The notes under the pieces are model-generated. The model did not search any database. It was not told the DNA's origin and saw only the letters and a list, made by a program, of their open reading frames with translations. DNA of 64,000 bases from Cryobacterium inferilacus. GTDB lineage: Bacteria > Actinomycetota > Actinomycetes > Actinomycetales > Microbacteriaceae. A program made the translations under genes and the position numbers. Positions within the stretch are counted from its first letter, which is position 1. Each line of letters starts with the position of its first letter. Below are positions 27,024 to 34,440 of this stretch, one piece after another. The DNA lies in contig NZ_JAIEUL010000002.1 in assembly GCF_019599185.1 (NCBI RefSeq), positions 124,001-188,000 on the forward strand, read 5' to 3'.

Positions 27024-27980
27024 CTACCGCGTCGTGACCAGCAGAGCGAGGGGGAGGAGGAATAGGACGGCGGTGGCCGAGAGCACCGCGGTGCGCCCGA
27101 TCGGTCCGAGCCCTGGGATGTCGCCCAGCAGCCGACTCACCCGAGGGCCCACCAGGTCGGCAGAGGACGTGTAGTCCAGGCCGCCGGCCACCGCCGCAGG
27201 GGACTGGGTGCCCGCGACCTCGTCCAGGTGCGCCGTGCCCACCAGGGCGATCGCCTGGGCCAGGGTCCGGTCATCGATCTCGAGCCTGGCCTGGTCGTCC
27301 GCCATCATCTCGACCAGGAGCGCAACGGCGTTCTCGGCCCGGTTGGCGATCGGGAACCAGCGCAGGGCACTGTGCCAGGACTTGAACGCCAGGAGCACCA
27401 GGTGATGCTGCTGGCGCAGGTGCGCACGCTCGTGCGCCACCACGCCGCGCAGCTGGTCGGCATCCAGCAGGCTCAGCAGCCCCCTGGACAGCACCGTTGC
27501 CGACCGGGTGCCGCCCGGCAGGCAGTAGGCGATCGGGGCGGCGTGGTCGATCACCCTGGTGCCCTCGGTGTCGAACGGCAACGGGTCGCTGAGCAGCCCG
27601 ATCAGGGTGTGGTGGCGGCGGCGCTGACGTTCAGCCCGGATGAACGTCGCGCTGAGGTTCAGAAGCAGGTGCGCGGTGAGGATCAGCGCCAGGCAGAGCG
27701 CCATCACCCCGGTCAGCGTGGCTCCGGCCGGGAGCGTGCCCGCGGCGACGTGACCGGTGAGGGCGGCCACGGCGGCCACCGGCGTGGCGCCGAACGGAAT
27801 GAGACCGAAGACCAGCAGGGAACCGATCATCGAGACGCCACCGGCCAGGGCGATCGACTGCCACAACGCCAGGGCCAGCCCGGGCGCGCGCGGTGGCCAG
27901 GCGGCGCCGGCGAGCAGGATGGGAATGGGCCAGGCCAGAAGGACGGCCAGGATCATCAGGGCCAGTGCGGTGCTGAGCAT
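27024..27980 (-). CDS. M56/BlaR1-type membrane metallopeptidase lacking an extracellular sensor domain
   Basis: Zinc membrane peptidase, 318 residues. Several hydrophobic helices (about 5-28, 36-62, 66-110) precede the cytoplasmic zincin-like domain with HERAH at residues 183-187 (VVAHERAHLRQQHHLVLL) and a distal Glu region VALLVEMMADDQARLE that would supply the third ligand. One last helix is at about 297-315. It lacks the penicillin-binding sensor of BlaR1/MecR1. Paired with the BlaI-type gene immediately upstream; by analogy it may cleave or inactivate that repressor, but the signal is unknown. The start ATG follows GGCGGAG. Confidence 0.87.
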   Translation of the reverse strand: MLSTALALMILAVLLAWPIPILLAGAAWPPRAPGLALALWQSIALAGGVSMIGSLLVFGLIPFGATPVAAVAALTGHVAAGTLPAGATLTGVMALCLALILTAHLLLNLSATFIRAERQRRRHHTLIGLLSDPLPFDTEGTRVIDHAAPIAYCLPGGTRSATVLSRGLLSLLDADQLRGVVAHERAHLRQQHHLVLLAFKSWHSALRWFPIANRAENAVALLVEMMADDQARLEIDDRTLAQAIALVGTAHLDEVAGTQSPAAVAGGLDYTSSADLVGPRVSRLLGDIPGLGPIGRTAVLSATAVLFLLPLALLVTTR

Positions 27981-28421: not shown

Positions 28422-28427
28422 ACTTTA
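28422..28427 (-). promoter_or_regulatory. Leaderless -10 box (TAAAGT) for blaI
   Basis: On the minus strand TAAAGT occupies 28427-28422, and seven bases follow before the blaI ATG. With a 17-bp spacer the -35 position would fall on the inner end of operator 1, so BlaI binding there would block its own promoter. Confidence 0.45.
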
Positions 28428-28444: not shown

Positions 28445-28461
28445 TTCTACCGTGCGTAGAA
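28445..28461. promoter_or_regulatory. BlaI-type operator 1 (TTCTAC-N5-GTAGAA)
   Basis: TTCTACCGTGCGTAGAA: two perfect six-base arms with a five-base centre. It overlaps the probable cydA -10 box TAGAAT (28457-28462). Perfect dyads of this TAC-N5-GTA form fit binding by a BlaI dimer, by family analogy. Confidence 0.75.
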
Positions 28462-28462
28462 T
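28457..28462 (+). promoter_or_regulatory. Predicted -10 box (TAGAAT) for cydABDC
   Basis: TAGAAT straddles the right edge of operator 1; the predicted start of transcription falls just before or inside operator 2, giving a leader of about 35 bases with the GGAGG site at 28496-28500. No convincing -35 is present, which would suit a regulated promoter. Confidence 0.5.
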
Positions 28463-28469
28463 AGTAGTC

Positions 28470-28486
28470 TTCTACGACACGTAGAA
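28470..28486. promoter_or_regulatory. BlaI-type operator 2 (TTCTAC-N5-GTAGAA)
   Basis: TTCTACGACACGTAGAA: perfect six-base arms identical to operator 1, with a different five-base centre. The centres of the two dyads are 25 bp apart, and this site would cover the start of the cydA transcript. Confidence 0.75.
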
Positions 28487-28504
28487 CTCACTCCCGGAGG
28501 ACAC

Positions 28505-29914
28505 ATGAACGAGTGGCTAGATCCGTTACTCCTGTCACGCTGGCAGTTCGGTTTGACGACGATTTACCACTTCCTGTTCGTCCCCCTCACGATCGGCCTC
28601 GTCACGACGGTGGCGATCTTCCAGACCGCCTGGTACCGCACCAACAAGGCCCACTACCTGCAGCTCACCCACTTCTTCGGCAAGATCTTCCTGATCAACT
28701 TCGCCATGGGTGTTGTGACCGGGATCGTGCAGGAGTTCCAGTTCGGTATGAACTGGTCGGATTACTCCCGATTCGTCGGGGACGTCTTCGGCGCGCCCCT
28801 GGCGTTCGAGGGCATCACGGCGTTCTTCCTCGAAGCCACCTTCATCGGCCTGTGGATCTTCGGCTGGGACAAGCTGCCCAAGAGGCTGCACCTGGCCACG
28901 ATCTGGCTCACCGCCGTCGGCAGCATCGCCTCGGCCTACTTCATCATCGCGGCCAACGCCTTCATGCAGAACCCGGTGGCCTATCGGATCAACGAGGAGA
29001 AGGGCAGGGCCGAACTGACCAGCATCGGCGAGCTGCTCACCAACCCGATCGCCCTCTCGGCGTTCCCGCACACGATCTTCGCCTGCTTCATGGTCTCCGC
29101 CGGCCTGATCATCTCGGTGGCCGCCTGGCACCTGGCCCGCAACCAGAACCTCGAGACCATGCGTCCCGCCCTCAAGTTCGGCCTCTGGATGATGGTCATC
29201 GCCGGTGCCCTCACCACCCTGATGGGCGACCAGCTCAGCCTGGCCATGGTCGAGGCCCAGCCGATGAAGATGGCCGCGGCCGAGGCGATGTACCACACCG
29301 CGACCGGCGCCAACGCATCCTTCTCGATCTTCACGCTCGGCACACCGGACGGCGTCAGCGAGCTCTTCTCCATTCGTATCCCGTATCTGCTGTCGTTCCT
29401 GTCCACGCACACCTTCGACGGCACAGTGGAGGGCATCAACAACCTCCAGGAGCAGTACGTGCAGCTCTACGGACCCGGCGACTACGCGCCCATCATCTGG
29501 GTCACCTACTGGTCGTTCCGCTGGATGATCGGCCTGGGCATCGCGCACATCATGGTCGCCGTCGCCGGCCTCTGGTTCACCCGCAAGGGCCGTCGCCCCC
29601 AGGCCTGGATGTGGAAGATCGCAATCTGGTCCTTCCCGATGTCGCTGCTGGCCATGAGTGTGGGTTGGGTCTTCACCGAGATGGGCCGGCAACCCTGGCT
29701 GGTCTTCGGCCTGCTCAAGACCGCAGACGGTGTCTCACCGAATGTCAGCGGGCTGGAAATCCTGATCTCCCTGATCGCCTTCACGCTGCTCTACGGCGCC
29801 CTCGCGGTGGTCGAGTTCCGCCTCATTCTCAAGGCCGTTCAGAAGGGGCCAGACCCCGCGACGGTGCCCGACCCGGTGTCCGGCGAAATCAAGCACACGA
29901 CCACGGTCTACTAG
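28505..29914 (+). CDS. cydA: Cytochrome bd ubiquinol/menaquinol oxidase subunit I CydA
   Basis: Membrane subunit carrying hemes b558, b595 and d; oxidises quinol and reduces O2 with high affinity without pumping protons. 469 residues. His22 in RWQFGLTTIYHFLFVPL corresponds to the conserved N-terminal heme ligand; TEMGRQPW (GRQPW at 394-398, preceded by Met393) matches the heme b558 Met region. About nine hydrophobic helices. The length indicates a short Q-loop compared with the 520-residue E. coli protein, as in other Gram-positives. ATG follows CCGGAGGACAC. First gene of cydABDC, with BlaI-type operators over its promoter. Confidence 0.97.
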   Translation: MNEWLDPLLLSRWQFGLTTIYHFLFVPLTIGLVTTVAIFQTAWYRTNKAHYLQLTHFFGKIFLINFAMGVVTGIVQEFQFGMNWSDYSRFVGDVFGAPLAFEGITAFFLEATFIGLWIFGWDKLPKRLHLATIWLTAVGSIASAYFIIAANAFMQNPVAYRINEEKGRAELTSIGELLTNPIALSAFPHTIFACFMVSAGLIISVAAWHLARNQNLETMRPALKFGLWMMVIAGALTTLMGDQLSLAMVEAQPMKMAAAEAMYHTATGANASFSIFTLGTPDGVSELFSIRIPYLLSFLSTHTFDGTVEGINNLQEQYVQLYGPGDYAPIIWVTYWSFRWMIGLGIAHIMVAVAGLWFTRKGRRPQAWMWKIAIWSFPMSLLAMSVGWVFTEMGRQPWLVFGLLKTADGVSPNVSGLEILISLIAFTLLYGALAVVEFRLILKAVQKGPDPATVPDPVSGEIKHTTTVY

Positions 29915-29924
29915 GAGCCCACCC

Positions 29925-30929
29925 ATGGAACTCAACACCCTGTGGTTCTGGATCATCGCCGTCATGTTCATCGGCTACTTCGTCCTGGACGGCTTCGACT
30001 TCGGTGTCGGCATGTCCCTGCCATTCCTGGGCAAGGACGACACCGACCGGCGCGTCCTGATCAACACCATCGGCCCGGTCTGGGACCTCAACGAGACCTG
30101 GGTCATCGTGGCAGGGGCCTCGCTCTTCGCGGCCTTCCCGGAGTGGTACGCCACGATGTTCAGCGGCTTCTACCTGGCATTGCTGCTCATCCTGCTGGCC
30201 CTCATCGCCCGCGGTGTGTCGTTCGAATACCGGCACCAGCGCCCTGAACTGAAGTGGAAGAAGTCCTTCGACACCATGATCGTGGTGGGTTCGGCTGTGC
30301 CGGCCCTGCTCTGGGGCGTGGCCTTCGGCAACGTCGTTCGCGGTGTGCCGTTGGACGCCGACTTCAACTACATCGGCAGCTTCTTCGACCTGCTGAACCC
30401 CTACGCTCTGCTGGCCGGGCTCACCACCCTGCTGTTGTTCTTCACCCACGGCGTGATCTTCGTCTCCGCCAAGACCGAGGGTGAGATCAGGGTGCGGGCG
30501 CGCGCCCTGGCGATCAAGTCTGGGCTGGTCACCATCGTCGTCGCGGCCTCGTTCCTGGTCTGGACCACCCTGGCCTACGGCACGTTCGCCTCCGGCATCC
30601 TGGCCGCCGTCGCTGCCGTGGCCCTCATCGCCGCGTACCTGATGAACCTGGCCGGCAGGGAGCGCACGGCGTTCGGCCTCATGGCCGTGACCATCGGTTT
30701 CGCCGTTCTGACCCTGTTCGCGTCGCTGTTCCCCGACGTGATGCCGGCCAGCAACAACGTGGCCAACAGCCTCACCATCGAGAACGCCTCATCCACCCCG
30801 TACACCCTGCAGGTCATGAGTTGGACGGCGTTGATCGCCGCTCCCGTGATCCTGGGCTACCAGGGCTGGACGTATTGGGTGTTCCGCAAGCGAATCGGCC
30901 GCACGCACATCGAAGCCGCGGCGCACTGA
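29925..30929 (+). CDS. cydB: Cytochrome bd oxidase subunit II CydB
   Basis: Partner subunit of CydA, needed for assembly and heme insertion. 334 residues with about eight membrane helices; the N-terminal signature LWFWIIAVMFIGYFVLDGFDFGVGMSLPFLG and GPVWDLNETWVIVAGASLFAAFPEWYATMFSGFYLALLLIL are diagnostic, and the C-terminus has VMSWTALIAAPVILGYQGWTYWVFRKRI. Starts ten bases after cydA with GGAGCCCACCC upstream. cydD follows 21 bp later, with a TACACT box that might add a second promoter. Confidence 0.97.
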   Translation: MELNTLWFWIIAVMFIGYFVLDGFDFGVGMSLPFLGKDDTDRRVLINTIGPVWDLNETWVIVAGASLFAAFPEWYATMFSGFYLALLLILLALIARGVSFEYRHQRPELKWKKSFDTMIVVGSAVPALLWGVAFGNVVRGVPLDADFNYIGSFFDLLNPYALLAGLTTLLLFFTHGVIFVSAKTEGEIRVRARALAIKSGLVTIVVAASFLVWTTLAYGTFASGILAAVAAVALIAAYLMNLAGRERTAFGLMAVTIGFAVLTLFASLFPDVMPASNNVANSLTIENASSTPYTLQVMSWTALIAAPVILGYQGWTYWVFRKRIGRTHIEAAAH

Positions 30930-30950: not shown

Positions 30951-32666
30951 ATGCGTCCTCTCGATCCACGGCTCCTCAAGCACGCCTCCGCGGCGCGCTG
31001 GTTCCTCGTGGCCGGTGCGGTCCTTGGACTGGCTCAGACGCTCACCGTCGTCGCGTTCTCCTGGTTCCTGAGCCAGAGCATCACGCTGGCCGTGCGGGGC
31101 GACTCGCTCGAGTCGCTGCGCGGAACCGTCGCCGCATTGGCCGGGGTGGTCGTGGTACGCGCCGTGCTGGTCTGGATGCTCGACGTCGCCGCCCACCGCG
31201 GCGCCGCCGCCGTGAAGAGCCAGCTGCGCACCGCGGTGATGCACCGGCTGGCCGAGCGCGGCCCGAACTGGCTGGCGGGCCAGCAGGATGCCCGGATCGC
31301 GACCACGGTGACGAGCGGGCTGGACGCGCTCGACAACTACTTCTCCCGCTACCTGCCTCAGCTTCTGTTGACGGCAATCGCCACGCCGATCCTGGTGCTG
31401 GTGATGCTCTGGCAGGATCCGGCGAGCGGGATCACGGTGATCATCGTGCTGCCGCTCATCCCGGTCTTCATGATCCTGATCGGGCAGGCCACCCAGGGTG
31501 TGCAGCGCGCGCAGTGGGATGCGCTGCAGCGGCTGTCAGCCGGATTCCTCGACGTGGTCGGGGGCTTGGCGACACTGAAGATCTACGGCAGGGAACGGCG
31601 CCAGACCGAGCGTCTGGGCAGCCTGACGGAGGAGTACCGGGGCCGCACGATGAAGGTGCTGCGGGTGTCCTTCCTCAGCGGGTTCGTGCTCGAACTCGCC
31701 GGCAGTCTCTCCGTCGCCCTGATCGCGGTGTCGATCGGGCTGCGGCTCGTGGACGGTTCGCTGCTTCTGGGCGTCGGCCTGTTCGTTCTTCTCCTGGCCC
31801 CCGAGGCGTTCCTGCCGGTGCGCCAGGTCGGCGTGCACTTCCACGCGGCGGCCGACGGGCTGGCCGCCGCCGAGGAAGTGTTCGCCATCCTCGATGCCGA
31901 CGAACCGTCCCGCCTGGATGCGTCGGGCGACCGGGTCGGGGGAGTCCGCACGGCATCCGCACTGCCCGTTGTCGGCCAGCCTGTTGTCGGCCAGCCCGCG
32001 GTTGACCTGCCCAGAGCCGACCGGCCCGGCGGCGGCGCCCTCAGCTTCGAGGGCGTGACCATCCGCCGCGGCGACAGCACCGTCATCGATCGGCTCAGCG
32101 CCACCTTCACCGCCGGGCGGCTCAGCGTGCTGCGTGGACCGAGCGGCGTGGGCAAGTCCACCCTGATCGGGGCCCTGCAAGCATTTGTGCCGTTCGACGG
32201 CACCATCCGCCTCGACGGCGTGACCGTGCCGACCGACGACCGCCGGGACTGGCTGGCCTGGTCAGGACAACGCGCCGGCCTGTTCTCCGGCAGCATCGCC
32301 GGCAATGTCGCCCTGGGCTCCAGCGTCACCGATGATTCCCTGGTGGTCACGGCCCTGCGTCTGGCCGGCGCCGCAGACCTGGAGCCCACGCTTCGGCTCG
32401 GCGTCAACGGTGCCGGGCTGTCCGGCGGCCAGGCCCAGCGTGTCGCCGCCGCCCGCGCCATCTACCGCTGCCTCGCCCTGGACTGCCGGGTCCTCGTGCT
32501 CGACGAGCCGAGTTCGGCCCTCGACACCGACGCGGAGAACGCCCTCATCGACGGCCTCGCCTCCCTGGCCGGTCAGGGCAGGATCGTCATCGTGGTCAGC
32601 CACCGACCGGCCTTCGTCGCCGCCGCAGACCACGTCGTCCACCTGAACGAGGTCGCCCATGTCTGA
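30951..32666 (+). CDS. cydD: Heterodimeric ABC exporter subunit CydD (cytochrome bd assembly)
   Basis: Half-transporter forming CydDC, which exports thiols or heme-related cargo and is required to assemble cytochrome bd. 571 residues. Six-helix exporter domain (about 1-310), a variable linker with a 15-bp tandem repeat encoding VVGQP twice, then the ATPase: Walker A GPSGVGKSTL, signature LSGGQAQRVAAARAIY, Walker B VLVLDEPSSALD, H-loop VSHRPAF. TACACT is eight bases before the ATG and no strong ribosome site is present. It overlaps cydC by eight bases. Confidence 0.93.
   Translation: MRPLDPRLLKHASAARWFLVAGAVLGLAQTLTVVAFSWFLSQSITLAVRGDSLESLRGTVAALAGVVVVRAVLVWMLDVAAHRGAAAVKSQLRTAVMHRLAERGPNWLAGQQDARIATTVTSGLDALDNYFSRYLPQLLLTAIATPILVLVMLWQDPASGITVIIVLPLIPVFMILIGQATQGVQRAQWDALQRLSAGFLDVVGGLATLKIYGRERRQTERLGSLTEEYRGRTMKVLRVSFLSGFVLELAGSLSVALIAVSIGLRLVDGSLLLGVGLFVLLLAPEAFLPVRQVGVHFHAAADGLAAAEEVFAILDADEPSRLDASGDRVGGVRTASALPVVGQPVVGQPAVDLPRADRPGGGALSFEGVTIRRGDSTVIDRLSATFTAGRLSVLRGPSGVGKSTLIGALQAFVPFDGTIRLDGVTVPTDDRRDWLAWSGQRAGLFSGSIAGNVALGSSVTDDSLVVTALRLAGAADLEPTLRLGVNGAGLSGGQAQRVAAARAIYRCLALDCRVLVLDEPSSALDTDAENALIDGLASLAGQGRIVIVVSHRPAFVAAADHVVHLNEVAHV
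31968..31997 (+). repeat. 15-bp tandem repeat in the cydD linker
   Basis: GTTGTCGGCCAGCC followed by T or C, twice in tandem (31968-31982 and 31983-31997). In-frame; it duplicates VVGQP in the region between membrane and ATPase domains. Confidence 0.8.
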
Positions 32667-34440
32667 TCCCCGCGCGTCCGGCCGCCCCCACCGCGACAGC
32701 TGGCTGCCGTCGGCGATGGTGCGATCGGTACTCGGGCTCGCCCAGCCGCCCGCCCGCCGCAGCCTGCCGGGCCTCGTGGCGGGAACGGTGAGCGCTGCCA
32801 GCGCCGTGGCCCTCCTGGCCTGCTCGGCCTGGCTCATCACCAGGGCCGCGGAAATGCCACCGATCCTCTTCCTGGGGCTGGCCGTCGTCGGTGTGCGCGC
32901 CTTCGCGCTGTCCCGCGCGGCATTCCGCTACCTGGAGAGGCTCCTCAGCCACGACGCGGCCTTCCGCCAGCTCGGCGCCCTGCGCCTGGGCATCTTCGCC
33001 CGCCTGGTGCCCCTGGCCCCCGCCGGTCTCTCCGGCACCCGCAGGGGCGACCTGCTGACCCGGCTGGTGCGGGACGTCGACGAGCTGCAGGACTTCCCTC
33101 TGCGCGTCGTTCAGCCCCTGCTCACCTCCGGCATCGTCGCGATCCTCAGCGTGGTCGGGGTCTGGCTGGTATTGCCGGCGGCCGGGCTCACCCTCGCCCT
33201 GTGCCTCGTGGTGGCCGCGGTCGTGGGCACGCTACTGACCGGTCTGCTGTCGGCCCGCTCCGAACGAGCCCTGGCACCGCTTCGCGGTGCCCTGGCCGAC
33301 GAGGTACTGGAGGTGGTCGAGAACCTGGACGTGCTCACGGCCTTCGGCGCGCTGGAGTCCCGGCTGGACAACCTCAGGGTTGTGGAGGAGAAGCTACGTC
33401 TGGCCGCGCTGCGCACCTCCACCGGTGCCGGAGTACAGGCCGCCGTGATCTCGCTCTGCGCCGGTGCCGCAACGGTGCTCGCTCTGACCACCGCGATCCC
33501 GGCATTGGGCTCCGGCGGGTTCTCCGGACCGGCCCTGGCCGTGGTGGTTCTGATCCCGATGGCCGTGTTCGAGGTTTTCGCCATGATCCCACCGGCCATC
33601 AGCGCCTGGCGCCGGGTGCGTTCAAGCGCCGAGCGGGTGCAGTCCGTGGTGCCGGAGCAGATTCCCGCCGAGATCCCGACCGAACTGGCGACCGGCAACG
33701 CCCTGGTCGACACGTCGGCGCCCGTGTCCGCGGTGCTGCCGGCGGCCGGCGCGGTTCTCGAGCTGACCGGGTTGGGCGCGCGCTGGCCGGGGGCAGACCG
33801 GGCCGCGCTGTCCGGGGTGACCATGCGCCTCACCGCCGGTGACCGTGTGCACCTGGCCGGGGCCAGCGGGGCCGGCAAGACCACCCTCGCCCAGACCCTC
33901 GTCCGGTTCCTGGACTACACCGGCTCGTACCGCATCAATGGCGTCGAAGCCAGGGAGCTGGCACCGTCGGACGTTCGTCAGGTTGTCGGCCTGTGCGAGC
34001 AGCGACCCTGGCTCTTCGACGACACCGTGCGCCAGAACCTGCTCTTCGCCAGGGACACGGCCACCGACGACGACCTGCTGAACGTTCTCGCCCGGGTCGG
34101 TCTGACGGACTGGATGAACAGCCGCGGCGGCCTGGACGCGCGGGTGGGCGAGCGCGGCGCACTCGTCTCCGGTGGCCAGGCCCAGCGCATCGCCCTGGCC
34201 AGGGCTCTGCTCGCTGACTTCCCGGTGCTCATCGTGGATGAACCGACAGCGAACGTCGACACCGGTCTCGGCGACACCCTCGTGCGTGACATCCTGTCGG
34301 CGTCGGCAGACGCGGGGCGCGCCGTGCTGCTCATCTCGCACACCCCGGTGCCGACCGAGCTGATCACCCGCACCTACACGCTCACGGCCGGATCCGGACT
34401 GCAGGCCGACCCTACTCCGGAGGAAGCTCTCGTTCCATGA
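32659..34440 (+). CDS. cydC: Heterodimeric ABC exporter subunit CydC (cytochrome bd assembly)
   Basis: Partner of CydD. 593 residues. Exporter membrane domain about 30-330 with CydC-typical EMPPILFLGLAVVGVRAFALSRAAFRYLERLLSHDAAFRQLGALR near the start. ATPase: Walker A GASGAGKTTLA, signature VSGGQAQRIALARALL, Walker B VLIVDEPTANVD, H-loop ISHTP. The H-loop and Walker B Asp/Glu appear intact. The ATG lies inside the cydD end. The last 29 bases overlap the end of the convergent dedA gene. Completes the cydABDC operon. Confidence 0.93.
   Translation: MSDPRASGRPHRDSWLPSAMVRSVLGLAQPPARRSLPGLVAGTVSAASAVALLACSAWLITRAAEMPPILFLGLAVVGVRAFALSRAAFRYLERLLSHDAAFRQLGALRLGIFARLVPLAPAGLSGTRRGDLLTRLVRDVDELQDFPLRVVQPLLTSGIVAILSVVGVWLVLPAAGLTLALCLVVAAVVGTLLTGLLSARSERALAPLRGALADEVLEVVENLDVLTAFGALESRLDNLRVVEEKLRLAALRTSTGAGVQAAVISLCAGAATVLALTTAIPALGSGGFSGPALAVVVLIPMAVFEVFAMIPPAISAWRRVRSSAERVQSVVPEQIPAEIPTELATGNALVDTSAPVSAVLPAAGAVLELTGLGARWPGADRAALSGVTMRLTAGDRVHLAGASGAGKTTLAQTLVRFLDYTGSYRINGVEARELAPSDVRQVVGLCEQRPWLFDDTVRQNLLFARDTATDDDLLNVLARVGLTDWMNSRGGLDARVGERGALVSGGQAQRIALARALLADFPVLIVDEPTANVDTGLGDTLVRDILSASADAGRAVLLISHTPVPTELITRTYTLTAGSGLQADPTPEEALVP

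Follow-up and report, generated by a model that had tools for sequence, protein, structure and literature searches.

A predicted BlaI and membrane metallopeptidase switch at the cytochrome bd operon of Cryobacterium inferilacus and related Actinomycetota

Pairs consisting of a repressor and a membrane protease of the BlaI/BlaR1 kind are best known from antibiotic resistance. In Cryobacterium inferilacus, a pair of this kind is located beside the genes for cytochrome bd oxidase (cydABDC), raising the question of the role of a penicillinase-type repressor at a respiratory operon. Beyond a handful of model species, the way in which many actinobacteria switch to cytochrome bd is ill-defined. The locus was analyzed in a 64,000-nucleotide stretch of the genome (contig NZ_JAIEUL010000002.1, positions 124,001 to 188,000), hereafter the window, and in related genomes. 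The original prediction, made from the window alone, was that a protease-linked switch controls cydABDC. We estimate at about 0.8 the probability that BlaI represses cyd and itself, that the metallopeptidase relieves this repression, and that the regulon in relatives comprises genes for cytochrome and cofactor supply.

The gap between the divergent blaI and cydA genes contains two inverted repeats, operator 1 (TTCTACCGTGCGTAGAA) and operator 2 (TTCTACGACACGTAGAA), each matching TTCTAC-N5-GTAGAA exactly. The two dyads have the same 6-base arms and 5-base centers, and the centers are 25 bp apart, in full agreement with the original prediction, including its coordinates (Table 1). No other exact match is present in the source genome (4.0 Mb, 75 contigs), for which a first-order Markov model gives an expectation of 0.003 exact dyads (5 × 10–5 per 64 kb). 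The pair is far beyond chance. Sites with one or two mismatches were not in excess over matches to the reversed pattern in this genome, and the secure dyad sites are the cyd pair only. Of the five sites with a single mismatch, one is located in the hemA-hemE interval, followed by a hemY-like gene (L109:1765-1781, corresponding to C8:50964-50980 of the source genome); as a BlaI target, this site is suggestive only.

A search of relatives for the dyad upstream of cydA next to blaI had been proposed together with the original prediction. Sixty-five loci (L005 to L069) were compared, of which 50 had adjacent and divergent blaI and cydA genes. Removal of six repeated contigs (L035, L040, L041, L042, L044, and L046) left 44 distinct loci, including that of the window. 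All 44 harbored two or three TAC-N5-GTA dyads between blaI and cydA, as anticipated. At least two perfect copies of TTCTAC-N5-GTAGAA were present at 41 of them, the other three (L019, L022, and L049) having one arm mismatch. The arms were nearly fixed and the bases of the centers varied, adjacent centers being mostly 24 to 27 bp apart. In the 15 other loci, the BlaI homologues were distant ones, chiefly from Bacteroidota, and no match to cydA was present. The 44 loci originated mostly from Cryobacterium, and also from Glaciibacter, Subtercola, Microbacterium STN6, Salinibacterium, actinobacterial metagenome-assembled genomes, and Blastococcus. The CydA proteins of Microbacterium STN6, Salinibacterium, and Blastococcus were 44–45% identical to CydA of the window over the aligned part. 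Blastococcus belongs to the order Geodermatophilales, versus Micrococcales for Cryobacterium (NCBI taxonomy), and its locus (L054) could be a stray sequence since it is carried by a contig of only 4,273 bases.

Tandem dyads were detected in 24 of 396 genomes of the window's order (source genome included), and the reversed pattern in none. The tandem was located between cydA and blaI in each of the 24 genomes, with the metallopeptidase gene beyond. In a phylum-wide sample, tandem dyads were found in 2 of 396 genomes, namely the source genome and a second member of the window's order, G041. In four genomes of one genus (g7; L159, L165, L170, and L181), the two cydA dyads abut, with centers 17 bp apart versus approximately 25 bp elsewhere. 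The spacing of the predicted dimers is thus not fixed.

The association between the regulator and the dyad was analyzed in 149 order-mates, with an E-value of up to 0.001 defining a BlaI match. Exact single dyads were found in 26 genomes, all of which were among the 64 genomes with a BlaI match (26/64 versus 0/85 in genomes without). Since cydA was far more common than the dyad (at least 138 of the 149 genomes), the presence of cydA alone does not bring the dyad. At a BlaI cut-off of 1 × 10–24, which was chosen after the list was seen, dyads were present in 22 of 23 genomes with a strong BlaI match versus 4 of 126 others (Fisher p = 3 × 10–21, kinship ignored). The latter four genomes (G069, G129, G157, and G170) had weaker BlaI homologues, each dyad being within about 6 kb of one. 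The same pattern was observed within genera: in g24, three genomes (G074, G105, and G147) had BlaI and two dyads each and two (G119 and G133) had cydA but neither; in g1, G028 had neither BlaI nor dyads. The dyads were thus conserved and found only with BlaI, which is predicted to bind them.

The best BlaI match was divergent from cydA and within 700 bp of it in at least 45 of the 64 genomes, including families of weak similarity (E-values of 1 × 10–18 to 1 × 10–24). Among 20 such regions from other families, 12 contained a perfect inverted repeat, its 6-bp arms separated by a gap of 5 bp (mean of 1.3 and maximum of 6 after shuffling). These repeats had a different core, mostly of the TACGAC or TACTAC type, indicating that the association of BlaI with cydA is older than the exact dyad. 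Inspection of G042 and G122 revealed the divergent arrangement without a clear dyad, G042 having a look-alike with a six-base center. Two other genomes, G107 (L189) and G149 (L205), had no cydA match among the matches listed; both harbored BlaI and the metallopeptidase, with 15 exact dyads in G107 and 5 in G149.

The position of the dyads relative to the promoters was analyzed at 37 of the 44 loci, leaving aside L037 and L038, which agree with the pattern on visual inspection, and L050 to L054, which have a different layout. The original prediction placed the cydA –10 element at TAGAAT (28457-28462), overlapped by operator 1. In 30 loci, 8 bp separate the two dyads nearest to cydA, and the last T of this hexamer was retained in 11 of them. 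In the same 30 loci, a GTA was retained further along the spacer (G in 30, T in 30, and A in 29), and a TA-N3-T hexamer was readable in the spacer of 35 of the 37 loci (mean of 10 in shuffled spacers). Because of this conservation, we place the likely –10 element at TAGTCT, between the operators, which fits better; operator 1 would then fall within the spacer of the cydA promoter, with operator 2 covering the point at which transcription begins. The earlier claim that operator 2 covers the cydA start accordingly applies to the predicted transcription start and not to the start codon, as the dyad ends 18 bp ahead of the ATG. On the opposite strand, all 37 loci had a TA-N3-T within a few bases of the start of blaI, 16 to 19 bp past the outer arm of the operator (a count without shuffle control). 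This spacing upholds the proposal that operator 1 overlaps the –35 position of blaI. With a probable –10 element only 7 bp before the ATG, the blaI transcript would be nearly leaderless, and the location of an operator arm in the –35 slot predicts autoregulation of blaI.

BlaI of the window scored 71.2 bits against the winged-helix repressor family PF03965 (cut-off of 22.6). Its closest solved relative is 2g9w (profile E-value of 5.5 × 10–32), which we take to be Rv1846c, the BlaI of Mycobacterium tuberculosis. The 34 aligned metallopeptidases, including that of the window, all matched PF01435; 12 matched PF05569 (Peptidase_M56), the window protein not being one of them. The gluzincin motifs HEXXH and EXXXD (H183, E184, H187, E224, and D228) were kept in 34 of 34. 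The predicted model of the window protein has a membrane-embedded BlaR1-type fold and gave its best structural alignments with BlaR1 entries, Foldseek returning these at probabilities of 0.82 to 1.00 and no match at E-values below 0.001. The domain search of this protein gave the metallopeptidase domain only and no C-terminal penicillin-binding sensor domain. Since the protein ends at residue 318, three residues past its last predicted helix (293-315), there is no room for a BlaR1-type sensor. On sequence grounds, we do not class the metallopeptidase as a β-lactam receptor.

The HEXXH and EXXXD motifs of BlaR1 and the phenylalanine at which BlaI is cleaved are described in PMC9834060, according to which the staphylococcal repressor is cut by BlaR1 between Asn101 and Phe102, Phe being the P1' residue. 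Phe102 was invariant in 36 of 36 BlaI sequences and aligned with the staphylococcal cleavage-site Phe; the preceding residue was Arg, not Asn, in 33 of the 36. A cysteine of the metallopeptidase (residue 153; 27522-27524, minus strand), in an AYC(L/V)P stretch, was kept in 33 of the 34 aligned proteins. It is located on a predicted strand (151-154) ahead of the HEXXH helix and could be a redox or metal contact.

Table 1. Features of the blaI-cydA region, with positions counted from the first nucleotide of the window.
Feature	Position	Strand	Basis
Membrane metallopeptidase of the BlaR1 type, 318 amino acids, without extracellular sensor domain	27024..27980	-	PF01435; model aligns best with BlaR1
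blaI, BlaI/MecI-family repressor, 126 amino acids	28034..28414	-	Pfam PF03965 Penicillinase_R, E 1.2e-19; closest solved structure 2g9w
Probable blaI –10 element, TAAAGT, 7 bp before the blaI ATG	28422..28427	-	Sequence and TA-N3-T conservation
blaI –35 slot, supplied by the operator 1 outer arm (GTAGAA, minus strand)	28445..28450	-	TA-N3-T 16-19 bp beyond, 37/37
Operator 1, TTCTAC-N5-GTAGAA dyad	28445..28461	.	Exact match; kept in relatives
Probable cydA –10 element, TAGTCT, sharing one base with operator 2	28465..28470	+	TA-N3-T in spacer, 35/37 versus mean of 10 shuffled
Operator 2, TTCTAC-N5-GTAGAA dyad, covering the predicted start of cydA transcription	28470..28486	.	Exact match; kept in relatives
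Probable cydA ribosome-binding site, GGAGG	28496..28500	+	Read from sequence
cydA, cytochrome bd oxidase subunit I	28505..29914	+	PF01654 Cyt_bd_oxida_I, E 4e-160
cydB, cytochrome bd oxidase subunit II	29925..30929	+	PF02322, E 1.1e-107
cydD-like ATP-binding cassette (ABC) exporter subunit	30951..32666	+	ABC_membrane, ABC_tran; name from position and order
cydC-like ABC exporter subunit	32659..34440	+	ABC_tran, ABC_membrane; name from position and order

The operon thus comprises cydA, cydB, and two genes for ABC exporter subunits, in that order. In relatives, dyads were also found at other genes. The 22 order-mates picked for having the tandem dyad contained 127 exact dyads, tandem copies included, versus 13 matches to the reversed pattern. 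In 57 genomes of the window's genus, 143 dyads (2.5 per genome) were found versus 43 reversed-pattern matches. Position relative to genes was analyzed for 104 dyads, a set without duplicates, without L191 to L193, and without dyads at cyd, blaI, or cydDC loci. With open reading frames (ORFs) predicted by a simple caller, 85 of the 104 were outside ORFs and just upstream of a start, 15 were inside ORFs, and 4 were neither; at least two of the 15 are explained by overcalled starts (L120 and L138). In contrast, the control sites (loci of 15 of the 22 reversed-pattern sites) were inside ORFs in 15 of 15 cases and upstream of a start in none.

The genes located behind the dyads were most completely covered in family f6, assigned to Micrococcaceae from its gene content, for which all 37 non-cyd sites of the nine genomes were analyzed. 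Dyads preceded hemQ-hemH in 9 of 9 genomes, as well as a gene for a small membrane protein (fam5, for example L141:1305-1709) with no Pfam or NCBIfam match. In 8 of 9, dyads occupied a divergent region between a histidine-phosphatase-like gene, accompanied by resA-like and ccdA-like genes, and a yceI gene. Dyads also preceded hmp (6 of 9), a pyridoxamine-oxidase-like gene (3 of 9), and two other genes in one genome each. In other genomes, dyads were found ahead of qcrC (three genomes), ctaG, copC, a DUF1775 gene, and the genes for COX2, SURF1, and heme o synthase, and also ahead of a gene followed by that of a PCuAC copper chaperone. Further dyads preceded genes for a universal stress protein, an amidohydrolase, and a sugar-nucleotide enzyme, and uncharacterised genes. 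Elsewhere in the window's genus, 15 extra sites among the matches listed were analyzed: 13 occupied the gap between an Rrf2/NsrR-like gene and a flavohaemoglobin gene, just ahead of the latter, and the remaining two preceded an aldehyde-dehydrogenase-domain gene; one further listed site, in G821, is outside the 15. The hmp, NsrR, and ResA matches are below the NCBIfam cut-offs, though the Pfam domains agree, and the adhE-like name of the aldehyde-dehydrogenase-domain gene derives from an Aldedh match. In G147 and G074, a fused cydDC gene located apart from cydAB has its own dyad 16 bp upstream.

Additional BlaI-metallopeptidase pairs with dyads were observed in family f16 (L191, L192, and L193) beside genes of the FecCD, PepSY_TM, and CtaG families, suggesting metal-related paralogues. 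In the window's order, dyads also occurred beside isocitrate lyase and phosphoenolpyruvate carboxykinase genes. In PMC7924339, cyd, the ATP synthase genes, icl, and pckA are reported to be up in an M. tuberculosis sigC mutant under copper limitation, with blaI discussed among the raised regulators; the parallel with these dyads may provide a lead.

The dyads, the promoter geometry, the gene order, the joint presence of BlaI and its dyads in genomes, the identity of the genes that follow dyads, and the catalytic and cleavage residues were read directly in the sequences, and from them we infer BlaI binding, cleavage, and repression as follows. Dimers of BlaI would bind both dyads and shut both divergent promoters, operator 1 blocking the blaI –35 element and the cydA promoter spacer and operator 2 blocking the cydA start region. 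As the operators cover both promoters, blaI would be autoregulated and cydABDC repressed. The metallopeptidase, activated from within the membrane, would cut BlaI before Phe102 and thereby free the promoters. In relatives, the same switch would extend to genes for haem synthesis, cytochrome c maturation, copper delivery, heme-copper oxidase, bc1, and flavohaemoglobin. The cue, which is the least certain part of this reading, would most probably be too little functional terminal oxidase, a state that could arise from low oxygen, copper or haem shortage, or nitric oxide (NO). The protease-linked switch of the original prediction is thus supported in part, by the retention of the dyads between blaI and cydA, their restriction to genomes with BlaI, and the separate dyad of the detached cydDC gene, and by the catalytic motifs and cleavage Phe; its promoter details were revised, and the regulon is predicted to be wider. 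The further proposal that the switch would not respond to β-lactams agrees with the lack of a sensor domain.

The extent of the regulon is the point at which another explanation has the greatest weight. In the species of the window, the reach of BlaI may be confined to cyd and its own gene, the wider regulon having a place in other lineages only, and we consider this possible at somewhat less than even odds. The isolation of the two exact dyads in the source genome and the lack of excess at one or two mismatches are what this explanation predicts, and the genus mean of 2.5 dyads per genome is near the two or three of the cyd locus alone. However, the flavohaemoglobin and aldehyde-dehydrogenase-domain sites account for the 15 extra sites analyzed among the matches listed for the genus, and the hemA-hemE site, with its single mismatch, is in the window's own genome.

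It is improbable that the dyads are bound by another respiration regulator, such as Rex, a Crp/Fnr protein, or NsrR, with blaI as a bystander. Regulators of these types control cyd in other bacteria, and an Rrf2/NsrR-like gene precedes the hmp target, but the dyads track BlaI even within genus g24, and a dyad arm occupies the –35 slot of blaI itself. We attribute an equally small probability to the sensing of β-lactams or cell-wall damage by the pair, as in staphylococci, with cyd induction as an envelope response. The BlaI/BlaR1 ancestry would account for such a function; the lack of space for a BlaR1-type sensor argues against it, as does the absence of β-lactamases and penicillin-binding proteins among the identified targets, some flanking ORFs being unnamed. 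Perfect 6-bp inverted repeats between divergent genes could also form RNA hairpins or terminators rather than protein sites. This is very improbable, as a hairpin would tolerate compensatory changes in the arms, which are nearly fixed in sequence while the centers vary, and as the repeats extend into the predicted promoters of blaI and cydA.

A repressor of cyd released by proteolysis would provide actinobacterial cytochrome bd with a named candidate regulator and its likely operator, together with a candidate regulon and a possible sensor in the form of a membrane protease. It also suggests that the labels 'beta-lactamase repressor' and 'penicillinase repressor' are likely to mislead when the gene is beside cydA. 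The locus offers a setting for finding what sensor-less M56-type peptidases detect. A broader proposal, which we hold tentatively and at nearly even odds, is that protease-switched BlaI is an order-wide regulator of cytochrome and cofactor supply, that the sensor-less peptidase reads the respiratory membrane directly, and that the staphylococcal β-lactam system is an offshoot of a wider membrane-reporting module. The input of the peptidase would then be the redox state of the quinones, the occupancy of the oxidase, or copper or haem sufficiency, and destruction of BlaI would free cyd together with the haem, cytochrome c, copper-delivery, oxidase, and NO-detoxifying genes.

Three known systems are relevant to this switch. 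In M. tuberculosis, whose BlaI (Rv1846c) is taken as the closest solved relative of the window BlaI, the repressor is reported to lower transcription of Rv1303 and to bind its promoter, Rv1303 being co-transcribed with ATP synthase genes (PMC12565901 and PMC5874750). These reports match the link, given with the original prediction, between a mycobacterial BlaI and ATP synthase genes. A search of titles and abstract beginnings in the open-licence PubMed Central literature returned no paper linking BlaI to cyd, and no report of control of cyd by the M. tuberculosis protein was found there. At the locus described here, in contrast, blaI and cydA diverge, with the dyads placed at the cyd promoter. 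Rex, CydR/Fnr, ArcA, ResD, and other regulators of cyd make the expression of cytochrome bd and cofactor genes depend on the respiratory state, but belong to protein families different from that of BlaI and act without a proteolytic step. The BlaI/BlaR1 and MecI/MecR1 systems of Staphylococcus aureus resemble the pair described here in that a repressor is encoded beside a membrane metallopeptidase, with related sequence and fold, shared gluzincin motifs (HEXXH and EXXXD), and a Phe at the cleavage site. They differ from it in that the Cryobacterium metallopeptidase is devoid of the β-lactam sensor domain, that Arg replaces Asn before the Phe in most of the aligned repressors, and that the neighbor of the pair is a respiratory oxidase rather than a β-lactamase.
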